Assembly: GCF_039566955.1 (NCBI RefSeq)
Contig: NZ_CP154796.1
Coordinates: 5,766,001 to 5,830,000 of the forward strand
Reading direction: 5' to 3'
DNA length: 64,000 nucleotides
DNA from: Micromonospora sp. DSM 45708
GTDB lineage: Bacteria > Actinomycetota > Actinomycetes > Mycobacteriales > Micromonosporaceae
Shown: piece by piece, positions 14,691 to 19,219 of the stretch
Numbering within the stretch: the stretch's first letter is position 1
How the letters are laid out: each line of letters starts with the position of its first letter
Made by a program: the position numbers and the translations under genes
Notes under the pieces: model-generated
Databases searched by the model: none
What the model saw: the letters and a program-made list of their open reading frames with translations, nothing else
Told to the model about the DNA's origin: nothing

Positions 14691-14731
14691 CCACCGGACG
14701 TACGGCAATCCGCGGTGATCGGAGAGAGCAC

Positions 14732-15094
14732 ATGGCAACGGTTGAGCTGACCACGGCCAACTTCGACGAGGTGACCAGCCGGGACGGCATCGTCCTGCTC
14801 GACTTCTGGGCGGACTGGTGCGGTCCGTGCAAGCGCTTCGCACCCGTCTACGAGCGCTCCTCGGAGAAGCACCCGGAGATCGTCTTCGGCAAGGTCGACA
14901 CCGAGGCGCAGCAGGAGCTGGGGGCCAAGTTCAACATCAGCTCCATCCCGACCGTGATGGCGATCCGCGACGGCGTCATCGTGTTCGCCCAGCCGGGCGC
15001 GCTGCCGGAGTCGGCACTGGAGAACCTCATCGAGCAGGTCGAGCAGCTGGACATGGACGACGTCCGCAAGAAGCTGTCCGAGCACAAGCACTGA
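14732..15094 (+). CDS. trxA: Thioredoxin
   Basis: 120 residues. The thioredoxin fold has the active site WCGPC (Cys30, Cys33) and the cis-Pro loop SSIPT at about residue 77. It reduces protein disulfides in the cytoplasm, recycled by thioredoxin reductase. The C-terminal extension (EQLDMDDVRKKLSEHKH) is about 12 residues longer than E. coli TrxA. ATG 14732 has GGAGAGA 5-6 nt upstream. A SigR-type promoter lies 42 nt upstream, and a strong hairpin follows. Confidence 0.95.
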   Translation: MATVELTTANFDEVTSRDGIVLLDFWADWCGPCKRFAPVYERSSEKHPEIVFGKVDTEAQQELGAKFNISSIPTVMAIRDGVIVFAQPGALPESALENLIEQVEQLDMDDVRKKLSEHKH

Positions 15095-16616: not shown

Positions 16617-16672
16617 CCGGGGTGGGGGTGGGGGTGGGTGGTTAGGGGGTGGGGTTGGGGCGGTTGGTGGGG
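16617..16672 (+). repeat. G-quadruplex-prone tract at convergent gene ends
   Basis: GGGGTGGGGGTGGGGGTGGG followed by more GGGG runs on the plus strand. It covers the last codons of the DCC gene and the gap after the HTTM gene. At least four G-runs with 1-nt loops satisfy the G4 pattern. Confidence 0.75.
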
Positions 16673-17061
16673 CCGTAGAGGCGGTCGCGGGTCTCCTGCG
16701 GGAGCGCGCACGCGGCGGTGCCGCCGGGCAGCCGGTGCCGGTTGCGGGCCACCCAGCGGTACGCGGGCCAGGCGGCGGCGCGCACCGGGGGCAGACGCAG
16801 CCCGCCACCGGCGACGCGCCAGAGCGGCCCGCTGTCGCCGAGCAGCCGGGCGATGGCGTCCGGCCCGGCGGCCCGGGAGCCGTCGGCGCCCACCCACTGC
16901 ACCGCCTCCTCGCACTCGGCCTCCGTCAGGCCCAGTGCCGCCAGGTCGGCGAACTGCCACGGGACCACCCGGGCCCCGGTCGGGATCCGACGTTCGATGA
17001 ACTGCGCGCAGCGGGTGCAGAACGCGCAGTCGCCGTCGTACACGAAGGTCGACGTCTCCAT
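16642..17061 (-). CDS. DCC-family (DUF393) thiol-disulfide oxidoreductase
   Basis: 139 residues. The N-terminal FVYDGDCAFCTRC carries the DxDCxxC motif of the DCC1/DUF393 family, a thioredoxin-like group. ARVVPWQFADLAALGLTEAEC and DAIARLLG fit the same family. It is thought to reduce or exchange disulfides of membrane partners, and is often next to HTTM genes, as here. ATG 17061 is the start of homology. It is convergent with the HTTM gene, and divergent from the radical SAM gene. Confidence 0.85.
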   Translation of the reverse strand: METSTFVYDGDCAFCTRCAQFIERRIPTGARVVPWQFADLAALGLTEAECEEAVQWVGADGSRAAGPDAIARLLGDSGPLWRVAGGGLRLPPVRAAAWPAYRWVARNRHRLPGGTAACALPQETRDRLYGPTNRPNPTP

Positions 17062-17127
17062 GCGTCCATCCTGCACCCGCACCGATCACGACGGTACGCG
17101 GTGTCCGGCGCGTCACTTGCGCTTCGT

Positions 17128-17143
17128 TCGTACACATGTTCGA
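17128..17143 (+). promoter_or_regulatory. LexA-like SOS box
   Basis: TCGTACACATGTTCGA matches the actinobacterial SOS consensus TCGAAC-N4-GTTCGA at 11 of 12 fixed positions. It lies 9 nt before the ATG at 17153, so LexA bound here would block initiation. It also sits between divergent genes, but the box abuts the radical SAM start and is about 70 nt from the DCC start. Confidence 0.65.
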
Positions 17144-17152
17144 ATGAACGCC

Positions 17153-19219
17153 ATGCGCTGGGACAACCTCTCCGCTCCCCCGGACGAGGGGACTCCTGAC
17201 CGGGCAGCGCCAGCGGCTCCACCCCTGCCGCTGGCGCTGCCCCACGCGGTCGTCCGCACGTTCGACACCCCCGACTTCGCCGGCATGACGTTCTACGAGG
17301 TGCAGGCCAAGTCGATCATCAACCGGGTGCCCGGTCAGTCGCGCGTGCCGTTCGAGTGGACCGTCAACCCCTACCGTGGCTGTTCCCACGCCTGCACCTA
17401 CTGCCTGGCCGGCGACACGCCGATCCTGATGGCGGACGGGCGCACCCGGCCGATCAGCGAGCTGACGCCCGGCGACCGGATCTACGGCACCCAGCGGCGC
17501 GGCGCCTACCGGCACTACGTCGTCACCACCGTGCTCGACACGTGGTCGACGGTGAAGCGGGCCTACCGGGTCACCCTGGCCGACGGCACCACGTTGGTGG
17601 CCAGCGGCGACCATCGGTTCCTCACCGAACGCGGCTGGAAGCACGTCACCGGCGGTATGCGAGGCGGCGGGCGCCGCCCGCACCTCACCACCCGCAACCG
17701 CCTGCTCGGCACCGGTCGGTTCGCGGTCCCGCCGAAGCGTTCCGCCGACTACCACCGGGGTTACCTGCACGCGCTGGTCCGCGACGCCGACCGGCGGCGG
17801 CTGCCGCTCGACGAGGCGGAGGCCGACGGCCCGCGCCTCCGCTTCCGGCTGCGCACCGTCGAGGCGGAGGCGCTGGAGCGGGCCGAGCGGTTCCTCGCCG
17901 ACGCCGGGGTGGGCGTCGAGCGGATGACCAGGCGGCCCGCCGGTCGGTTGACGACCCTGCGCACGGTGGGGCCGGTCCGGGCCGGGGTCGTCGCCGCGCT
18001 GGTCCGACCACCCGACGACCCGACCGACGACTGGCGGCACGGCTTCCTGGCCGGCATGTTCGACGCCGCCGGCAGCTGCCGCCGGGGCGTGTTCCGGATC
18101 GGCGTCACCGACGACGAGAGCCGGCGCCACGCGGTCGAGGCGCTCGAACGGTTCGCCTTCCGGTGGGCGCTCGACGATCCGGGCAACCGCAGCGGAAGTT
18201 TCCAGATCCGGCTGACCGGTGGCCTGCCGGAGCGGCTGCGCTTCTTCCACCTGACCGATCCGGCGGTCACCGGCCGTCGCTCGATCGAGGGCGCGGCGCT
18301 CAAGTGCGCGGCGCGGCTCCAGGTGACATCCGTCGAGGATCTGGGGCTGGAGCTGCCGCTGTGGGACATCACCACCGGCACCGGCGACTTCATCGCCAAC
18401 GGGGTGGTCAGCCACAACTGCTTCGCCCGCAACACCCACACCTACCTCGACCTGGACGCCGGGGCCGACTTCGACCGCAAGGTGATCGTCAAGGCCAACG
18501 CCGGCGAGCTGGTCCGGCGCGAGCTGGCCGCCCCACGCTGGCGGGGCGCGCACGTCGCCATGGGCACCAACGTGGACTGCTACCAGCGGGCCGAGGGGCG
18601 CTACCGCCTGATGCCGCCGATCCTGGAGGCGCTACGCGACTTCGCCAACCCGTTCTCGATCCTGACCAAGGGCACCCTGCTGCTGCGCGACCTGCCCCTG
18701 TTGCGGCAGGCCGCCGAGGTGACCCGGGTCGGGCTGTCCTATTCGGTGGGTTTCGTGGACGAGGCGCTCTGGCGCCTGGCCGAGCCGGGCACGCCGAGCC
18801 CGCGCCGCCGGCTGGACGCGGTCCGCCGGCTCACCGACGCCGGCTTCCCGGTCGGCGTGCTGATGGCCCCGATCCTGCCGGGCCTCAGCGACCACGAGGA
18901 GTCGATCGACGCCACCGTGTCGGCGATCGCGGCGGCCGGGGCCGTCGACGTGACGCCGCTGCCGCTGCACCTGCGCCCCGGCGCCCGGGAGTGGTACGCA
19001 CGCTGGCTGGCCCGCGAGTTCCCCCACCTGGTGCCCCGCTACCGGCAGCTCTACCAGGCCGGGGCGTACGCGCCGCAGGCGTACCAGCGGGAGGTGACGG
19101 CGCGGGTCCGGATGGCGGCACGCCGGCACGGGCTGCACCGGGGCGAGGTCGGCGACAACCGCCGGCTGCCCGACACCGCACCGCCGGCGTCGACCGCCGA
19201 ACAGCTCTCCCTGCTGTGA
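17153..19219 (+). CDS. Intein-containing Rv2578c-family radical SAM protein
   Basis: 688-residue precursor: extein 1-83, intein 84-422, extein 423-688. The spliced 349-residue enzyme resembles M. tuberculosis Rv2578c. It has FEWTVNPYRGCSHACTY before the intein and CFARNTHTYLDL after it, giving CxxxCxxC for the 4Fe-4S cluster, then ILTKGTLLLRDLPLL and LHLRPGAREWYARWL. The reaction is unknown (spore-photoproduct-lyase-like radical SAM branch). The MRW start at 17153 is chosen because homologues start MRW; ATG 17144 is an in-frame alternative. No clear ribosome site exists, so a leaderless or short-leader mRNA is likely. An SOS-type box directly precedes it. Confidence 0.93.
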   Translation: MRWDNLSAPPDEGTPDRAAPAAPPLPLALPHAVVRTFDTPDFAGMTFYEVQAKSIINRVPGQSRVPFEWTVNPYRGCSHACTYCLAGDTPILMADGRTRPISELTPGDRIYGTQRRGAYRHYVVTTVLDTWSTVKRAYRVTLADGTTLVASGDHRFLTERGWKHVTGGMRGGGRRPHLTTRNRLLGTGRFAVPPKRSADYHRGYLHALVRDADRRRLPLDEAEADGPRLRFRLRTVEAEALERAERFLADAGVGVERMTRRPAGRLTTLRTVGPVRAGVVAALVRPPDDPTDDWRHGFLAGMFDAAGSCRRGVFRIGVTDDESRRHAVEALERFAFRWALDDPGNRSGSFQIRLTGGLPERLRFFHLTDPAVTGRRSIEGAALKCAARLQVTSVEDLGLELPLWDITTGTGDFIANGVVSHNCFARNTHTYLDLDAGADFDRKVIVKANAGELVRRELAAPRWRGAHVAMGTNVDCYQRAEGRYRLMPPILEALRDFANPFSILTKGTLLLRDLPLLRQAAEVTRVGLSYSVGFVDEALWRLAEPGTPSPRRRLDAVRRLTDAGFPVGVLMAPILPGLSDHEESIDATVSAIAAAGAVDVTPLPLHLRPGAREWYARWLAREFPHLVPRYRQLYQAGAYAPQAYQREVTARVRMAARRHGLHRGEVGDNRRLPDTAPPASTAEQLSLL
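17402..18418 (+). other. Intein (339 aa) with decayed LAGLIDADG endonuclease
   Basis: The intein starts with Cys1 (CLAGDTPILMADG, block A). Block B holds LVASGDHRFL with His at precursor residue 154. It ends with LWDITTGTGDFIANGVVSHN (blocks F and G) and is followed by Cys+1. All splicing residues (Cys1, block-B His, penultimate His, terminal Asn, Cys+1) are present, so splicing should work. The homing domain is recognisable but degraded: GYLHALVRDAD at residues 203-213 in place of a GYLxGxIRGDG-type motif, and FLAGMFDAAGS at 298-308 where the acidic residue before GS is Ala. Confidence 0.93.

Follow-up and report, generated by a model that had tools for sequence, protein, structure and literature searches.

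The intein-bearing radical SAM gene

The window analyzed here (the whole 64,000-nt stretch of Micromonospora sp. DSM 45708 DNA, whose coordinates are used throughout) contains a gene of the Rv2578c family of radical SAM proteins that is interrupted by an intein (Table 1). In a profile search with the whole protein, model NF038136 (rSAM_Rv_intein) scored 911.3 bits against a cut-off of 700. Model NF038135 (rSAM_Rv2578c), which matched residues 1–83 and 423–688, scored 525.2 bits against 430, which places the host protein in the family. The general model TIGR01445 (intein_Nterm) scored 28.4 (cut-off 24.5), and TIGR01443 (intein_Cterm) reached 14.5, slightly below its cut-off of 15.6. Translation of 17153–19219 gives CSHACTY / CLAGDTP...GVVSHN / CFARNTHTY across the two junctions, so that Cys77, Cys81, and Tyr83 precede the intein, Cys1 is residue 84, His421-Asn422 form the intein end, and Cys+1 is residue 423. 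The insert has the hallmarks of its class: Cys1, an N-terminal splicing block with GDHRF, a C-terminal His-Asn, and Cys+1. On its removal, CxxxCxxC is restored as C77, C81, and C423, a motif common to the 84 congeners with an empty allele.

Table 1. Features at the intein locus, in window coordinates.
Feature	Position	Strand	Basis and remarks
Divergent DCC1-like thiol-disulfide oxidoreductase gene	16642..17061	-	PF04134, 58 bits; SOS box in the gap to the precursor gene
CTTGC block, possible -35-like element	17116..17120	+	91-95% identity at -37 to -33 in 133 congeners; promoter role inferred
LexA/SOS-type box TCGTACacatGTTCGA	17128..17143	+	First base 25 nt before ATG 17153; conservation, genome count, other genera; TCGTAC half common to lexA/recA sites
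Gene for the 688-aa precursor, an intein-bearing Rv2578c-family radical SAM protein	17153..19219	+	Translation, family and intein models; start backed by conserved MRW
N-extein, residues 1-83, ending CSHACTY	17153..17401	+	Translation, genus alignment
Intein, 339 aa, residues 84-422, Cys1 to His-Asn	17402..18418	+	Profile models, genus and wider comparison
Decayed LAGLIDADG motif P1, GYLHALVRDAD (intact relatives GYLCGMVRGDA)	17759..17791	+	Genus alignment
Decayed LAGLIDADG motif P2, GFLAGMFDAAG (intact relatives GFLAGIFDAEG)	18041..18073	+	Genus alignment
C-extein, starting CFARNTHTY, remainder of radical SAM domain	18419..19219	+	Translation

The first-pass annotation had placed the intein between Tyr83 and the third cluster cysteine, with Cys1 in the slot of that cysteine in the precursor and Cys+1 in it after splicing. 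The translation, together with the NF038136 score, bears out this arrangement. The comparison with intein-free homologues that it had proposed was carried out, and the empty alleles (84 of 134 full-length congeners) fix the insertion point to the residue. Occupation of the third-cysteine slot by Cys1 is automatic for any Cys1 intein placed directly before that cysteine. Inteins in Rv2578c relatives were correctly described as already known: the architecture is of a known type, with a dedicated NCBI model and many named members. The nearest relatives are annotated as NF038136-type, for example Micromonospora sp. RP3T, whose intein is 91% identical. The window copy shares host and insertion point with the NF038136 family and differs from it in its decayed endonuclease.

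A search of solved structures returned a single weak intein match, gp41-1 (E 0.0019). The AlphaFold model of the precursor had a mean pLDDT of 59.1, and residues 1–86 and 401–449 fell below 50. A thioredoxin gene (14729–15091, plus strand; PF00085, 90 bits) is located roughly 2 kb upstream of the gene with the intein.

Distribution of the intein

Searching 151 Micromonospora genomes yielded 134 full-length genes, all of which were parsed; the others had no match (10) or a partial or weak one (seven: G099, G062, G031, G066, G083, G107, and G158). The intein was found at the exact same codon in 50 of the 134 genes. All 50 inteins keep Cys1, the terminal His-Asn, the +1 Cys, the −3 and −7 Cys, and the −1 Tyr. 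At position −2, Val or Thr occurs in 47/50 intein-bearing vs. 50/84 empty alleles, with a median sign-test p of 0.06 over 14 independent pairs.

On a tree of the joined exteins, the intein state requires 24 changes, and branches with SH-aLRT support of 95% or more force 14 of these. The intein and host trees have 23 of 47 splits in common, with one pair of well-supported splits in conflict. Since this is the only such conflict, gains and losses are indistinguishable here. Frequent recent transfer within the genus is unsupported by the topology, and losses could account for most of the changes on the host tree.

A scan of named genomes with the intein as query gave 147 relatives, of which 80 were kept, and in 79 of these the insertion site was the same cluster cysteine. 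The one deviating record, L165, shows the C-junction alone; its counterpart is L149 (G099), where the reading frame is broken directly after Cys1. A second frame-broken gene with an intein, L151 (G062), has its break downstream of the intein, and both breaks may reflect assembly error or gene loss. In G031 the gene is divided between contigs, one of the visible parts being the C-end of the intein, and in G066 the 3′ part alone is visible. Besides Actinomycetota, intein carriers include MAG records labelled Beta- and Gammaproteobacteria, Myxococcales, and Omnitrophota (labels as deposited). Viral contigs gave no match to an endonuclease-intact intein and 20 partial matches to the N-terminal part only of the window intein, and no phage carrier was found among them.

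Decay and absence of the endonuclease

The window intein has neither catalytic acid of the two LAGLIDADG motifs (RDAD in P1, DAAG in P2) and does not classify as an active LAGLIDADG element. Both acids were present in 24 of the 50 genus inteins (GMVRGD / FDAEG type), while 19 had neither and seven lacked the second. The clade of the window strain comprises 18 genomes, all intein-bearing, and the second (P2) acid is gone in every one; in five of these genomes an acid does align in motif P1. Median pairwise dN/dS (omega), taken from non-independent pairs, was 0.56 for the endonuclease region of this clade, compared with 0.16 for the splicing region and 0.12 for the exteins. The corresponding values in the endonuclease-intact group were 0.23, 0.14, and 0.16. 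The median ratio of intein dS to extein dS was 1.05 in the window clade, which indicates vertical inheritance of the intein, vs. 2.0 in the endonuclease-intact group, which indicates that the intein there has a history partly separate from that of its host. By its sequence, the window intein resembles an ordinary homing intein that has entered its decay phase, with a loosely evolving endonuclease region beside a still constrained splicing region; it would be an ageing representative of a familiar selfish element.

Forms without any endonuclease were found in a class-wide sample of 296 genomes, of which 123 scored above the cut-off. Among 24 long-match genes fetched from outside Micromonospora, 19 contained inteins of 146–166 aa without an endonuclease and five contained full-size inteins. 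One genus (g44, probably Jiangella; L255–L258 and L264–L271) carried a 152-aa mini-intein of this kind at the same codon in 12/12 genomes. Forms of 146–166 aa were also present in seven genomes spread over five further genus codes (g36, g49, g61, g65, and g100). Within g65, the mini-intein occurred in two of five genomes and matches of empty length in the other three, so loss or gain occurs there too. Long persistence without an endonuclease is compatible with rare exact loss or with usefulness and is proof of neither.

Possible conditional splicing

The rival reading that survives best, although we judge it unlikely, is redox- or metal-gated splicing through a Cys81–Cys84 disulfide or through a zinc or iron-sulfur cluster on Cys77, Cys81, Cys84, and Cys423. 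Its purpose, of the same low probability, would be to let the enzyme mature only under conditions suiting an oxygen-labile cluster. In the precursor, Cys77-x3-Cys81-x2-Cys84 could conceivably, on chemical grounds, hold a bound cluster, zinc, or a Cys81–Cys84 disulfide. The strict conservation of Cys-3 and Cys1 noted above fits this reading, as do two systems from the literature.

The first is in MoaA, which is a radical SAM enzyme; the primary study of the Pyrococcus abyssi MoaA intein is reportedly that of Callahan et al. in 2011. Two reviews describe a Cys-3/Cys1 disulfide that controls splicing of this intein (PMC10663303, PMC3922620). Like the window intein, it lies in a radical SAM protein and has a native Cys-3 beside Cys1 in CxxC geometry; unlike it, it belongs to another host family and another domain of life, and redox control is reported for it. 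The −3 spacing suggests that both inteins sit at the third cysteine of CxxxCxxC. The redox-gating idea is therefore not new in kind, and the earlier remark that redox control of such inteins was unknown does not stand beside so close a precedent, albeit one from a different family. In the second system, the mycobacterial DnaB intein, zinc bound at the catalytic cysteine is reported to inhibit splicing reversibly (PMC7360933). This intein is actinobacterial and has a catalytic cysteine, as the window intein does, but its host and site differ.

Against gating by redox or metal, the cysteines concerned are cluster ligands and are equally strict in all 84 empty alleles, so their conservation is silent on gating. 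A cysteine near Cys1, the mark of conditional splicing, is indeed present in all 50 inteins as Cys-3, but for the same reason it is uninformative. The persistence of copies with a dead or missing endonuclease (18/18 in the window clade, 12/12 in the mini-intein genus) also speaks for gating, but it is equally expected where exact loss is rare. The junction in the AlphaFold model is too poor for judging geometry.

An extended form of the idea, to which we give slightly less credence still, would have the dead-endonuclease intein kept as a maturation checkpoint, in which a thiol or metal site formed by Cys-7, Cys-3, Cys1, and Cys+1 holds back splicing until the cell is in a reduced state with a good iron-sulfur supply. 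If this were true, an SOS-induced, oxygen-labile DNA-damage enzyme would be released only once its cluster could be built, and the endonuclease-free forms of the window clade and of g44 would be independent domesticated versions. The evidence gathered here does not point to the intein acting as a switch. A search of the open-licence literature on inteins, radical SAM, and Rv2578c found no splicing study of the Rv2578c intein, and one of the two open-licence papers on Rv2578c does not mention inteins.

LexA-type box upstream of the gene

Rv2578c belongs to the mycobacterial LexA regulon. The box upstream of the window gene (17128–17143) reads TCGTACACATGTTCGA and matches TCGAAC-N4-GTTCGA at 11 of 12 positions. 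For Streptomyces venezuelae, the consensus is a palindromic tCGAAC-N4-GNNCGa (PMC9380542), and measured against it, the window gene has a conserved LexA-regulon box near its start. The pattern TCGNACNNNNGTTCGA occurs at nine distinct places in the 7.0-Mb genome vs. none for the reversed-pattern control.

The presence of a LexA-like box, as claimed in the first-pass annotation, is upheld by its conservation. Scores of at least 11/12 were obtained at 124 of the 134 genus loci and of at least 10/12 at 133; the sole congener below 10/12, L090, has a misplaced start. By comparison, at least 10/12 was reached in 0.4% of mononucleotide-shuffled 200-nt upstream regions and in 2.2% of 1477 gene or downstream windows of 200 nt. 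Mean column conservation over 133 loci was 0.88 inside the box vs. 0.70 in the rest of the 60 nt upstream. Outside the genus, the GAAC-N4-GTTC core (at most one mismatch, at most 70 nt upstream) was found at 79/81 loci, with a background of 1.7% in shuffles. This count excludes 43 of 124 loci (eight where the first pattern missed the motif, 12 without a recognised start, and 23 named Micromonospora). Several Solirubrobacterales-type loci are weaker cases, with the core located at the start codon itself and a score of 6–7/12 for the full 16-mer. Seven loci (L176, L193, L212, L218, L220, L223, and L227) have the core at −12/−13 instead of about −22, and five of these are MAGs labelled Solirubrobacterales or Solirubrobacteraceae.

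The box does not depend on the intein. At least 11/12 was found in 47/50 intein-bearing vs. 77/84 empty genus alleles, and at least 10/12 in 83/84 empty ones. Outside the genus, the core was present at 60/61 intein-bearing loci (rows that include one genome twice, as L192 and L280) and at 19/20 empty loci. The proposal that intein and box act as a combined control finds no support in these equal frequencies inside and outside the genus, and the SOS box was ruled out as a component of the intein system, given that empty alleles carry it too. Being equally present in intein-free genes, the box belongs to the host gene and not to the intein. It is very probably a real, old feature of that gene, with or without intein, as judged from the alignments.

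In the window genome, lexA and recA each gave a single match, with a 10/12 site upstream that contains the TCGTAC half. These sites lend the box weak support; several other 10/12 matches lie inside the lexA locus, coding parts included. A Y-family polymerase gene of the same genome has a one-mismatch box 10 nt ahead of its start. The only perfect TCGAAC-N4-GTTCGA palindrome of the genome (L240, 1501–1516) is 12 nt away from the start of an 82-aa ORF that follows it and has no Pfam match. In S. venezuelae, the LexA study lists vnz_31145, whose radical SAM product resembles thymine-crosslink repair enzymes, in its DNA damage regulon table with values of 19.97 and 1.31 (PMC9380542). The box listed for vnz_31145, TCGACCGTTCGCTC, gave no match to the GAAC-N4-GTTC site of six probable Streptomyces loci, and vnz_31145 is at most a candidate orthologue of Rv2578c.

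A scan with the sigma-70 consensus and for terminators found zero promoters and zero terminators. A leaderless promoter whose −10 element would overlap the box is suggested by the fixed distance of the box and by two conserved stretches, TTCGAAT and CTTGC (the latter at −37 to −33). The box also sits between two divergent genes, and it might mainly control the DCC1-like thiol oxidoreductase gene instead of the radical SAM gene, a reading that we consider improbable. A DCC motif was found on the opposite strand of the upstream DNA in 114 of 134 congeners, in keeping with such control, but it was not found in the remaining 20, yet a box of at least 10/12 is missing in only one. In addition, the first base of the box lies 23–25 nt from the radical SAM start in 133/134 loci, with similar distances in many genera. 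In six probable Streptomyces the box is at −46 to −49, with a ribosome-binding-like GAGGAGG in between.

Splicing that itself responds to DNA damage and acts together with the SOS box is very improbable. A review reports that the RadA intein of Pyrococcus horikoshii splices faster with single-stranded DNA or DNA damage (PMC10663303), and the box is indeed found on host genes of the present family with and without intein. That same independence of box and intein, at the empty loci of the genus and beyond it, stands against this reading, and no sign of a damage-sensing step in splicing was seen here. Least credible of all is an intein that is still an active homing element. The 24 of 50 genus inteins with both acids speak for it, but it is rejected for this strain on the loss of both catalytic acids, and the endonuclease region of the window's clade also shows relaxed selection.

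Proposed mechanism

We consider it highly probable that the locus as a whole is a LexA-repressed, damage-induced Rv2578c radical SAM gene with a decaying homing intein, the box being unrelated to the intein. The gene, the insertion point, the intact splicing residues, the endonuclease without catalytic acids, and the conserved box can be read directly from the DNA; splicing of the precursor, and the steps around it, we infer. LexA is predicted to repress the gene, and DNA damage to induce it. Once LexA is cleared, transcription would lead to the 688-aa precursor, from which the intein would excise itself by the standard Cys1 / His-Asn / Cys+1 chemistry, to judge by its residues. Cys+1 would then become the third [4Fe-4S] ligand, giving a mature enzyme of 349 aa with its cluster on Cys77, Cys81, and Cys423. 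The intein's probable route of entry was DNA homing at the conserved third-cysteine codon of CxxxCxxC. In the window's clade, the endonuclease appears to have lost its catalytic acids and to be decaying, and the splicing domain would have been retained because the host protein would otherwise be without its cluster site.

Implications for the genus and the gene family

At a single codon of a single gene, the genus offers a clean natural series: 84 alleles are empty, 24 have an intact endonuclease, and 26 a decayed one. This Micromonospora series lends itself to comparing the redox behaviour of an SOS gene's alleles with and without the intein.

Streptomyces phage Samy, too, has its attB in the Rv2578c-family gene (PMC12924846). 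The Samy attP 12-mer matches 11/12 on the reverse strand at codons 30–34 of the six probable Streptomyces loci (L249–L254), far from the equivalent of the intein codon at 77–81. Two kinds of mobile element therefore probably use one gene at different sites, as far as these matches indicate. The same 2026 paper on this phage calls any DNA-repair link of the gene family speculative (PMC12924846). The widely conserved LexA-type box described here supports a DNA-repair link for the Rv2578c gene family.
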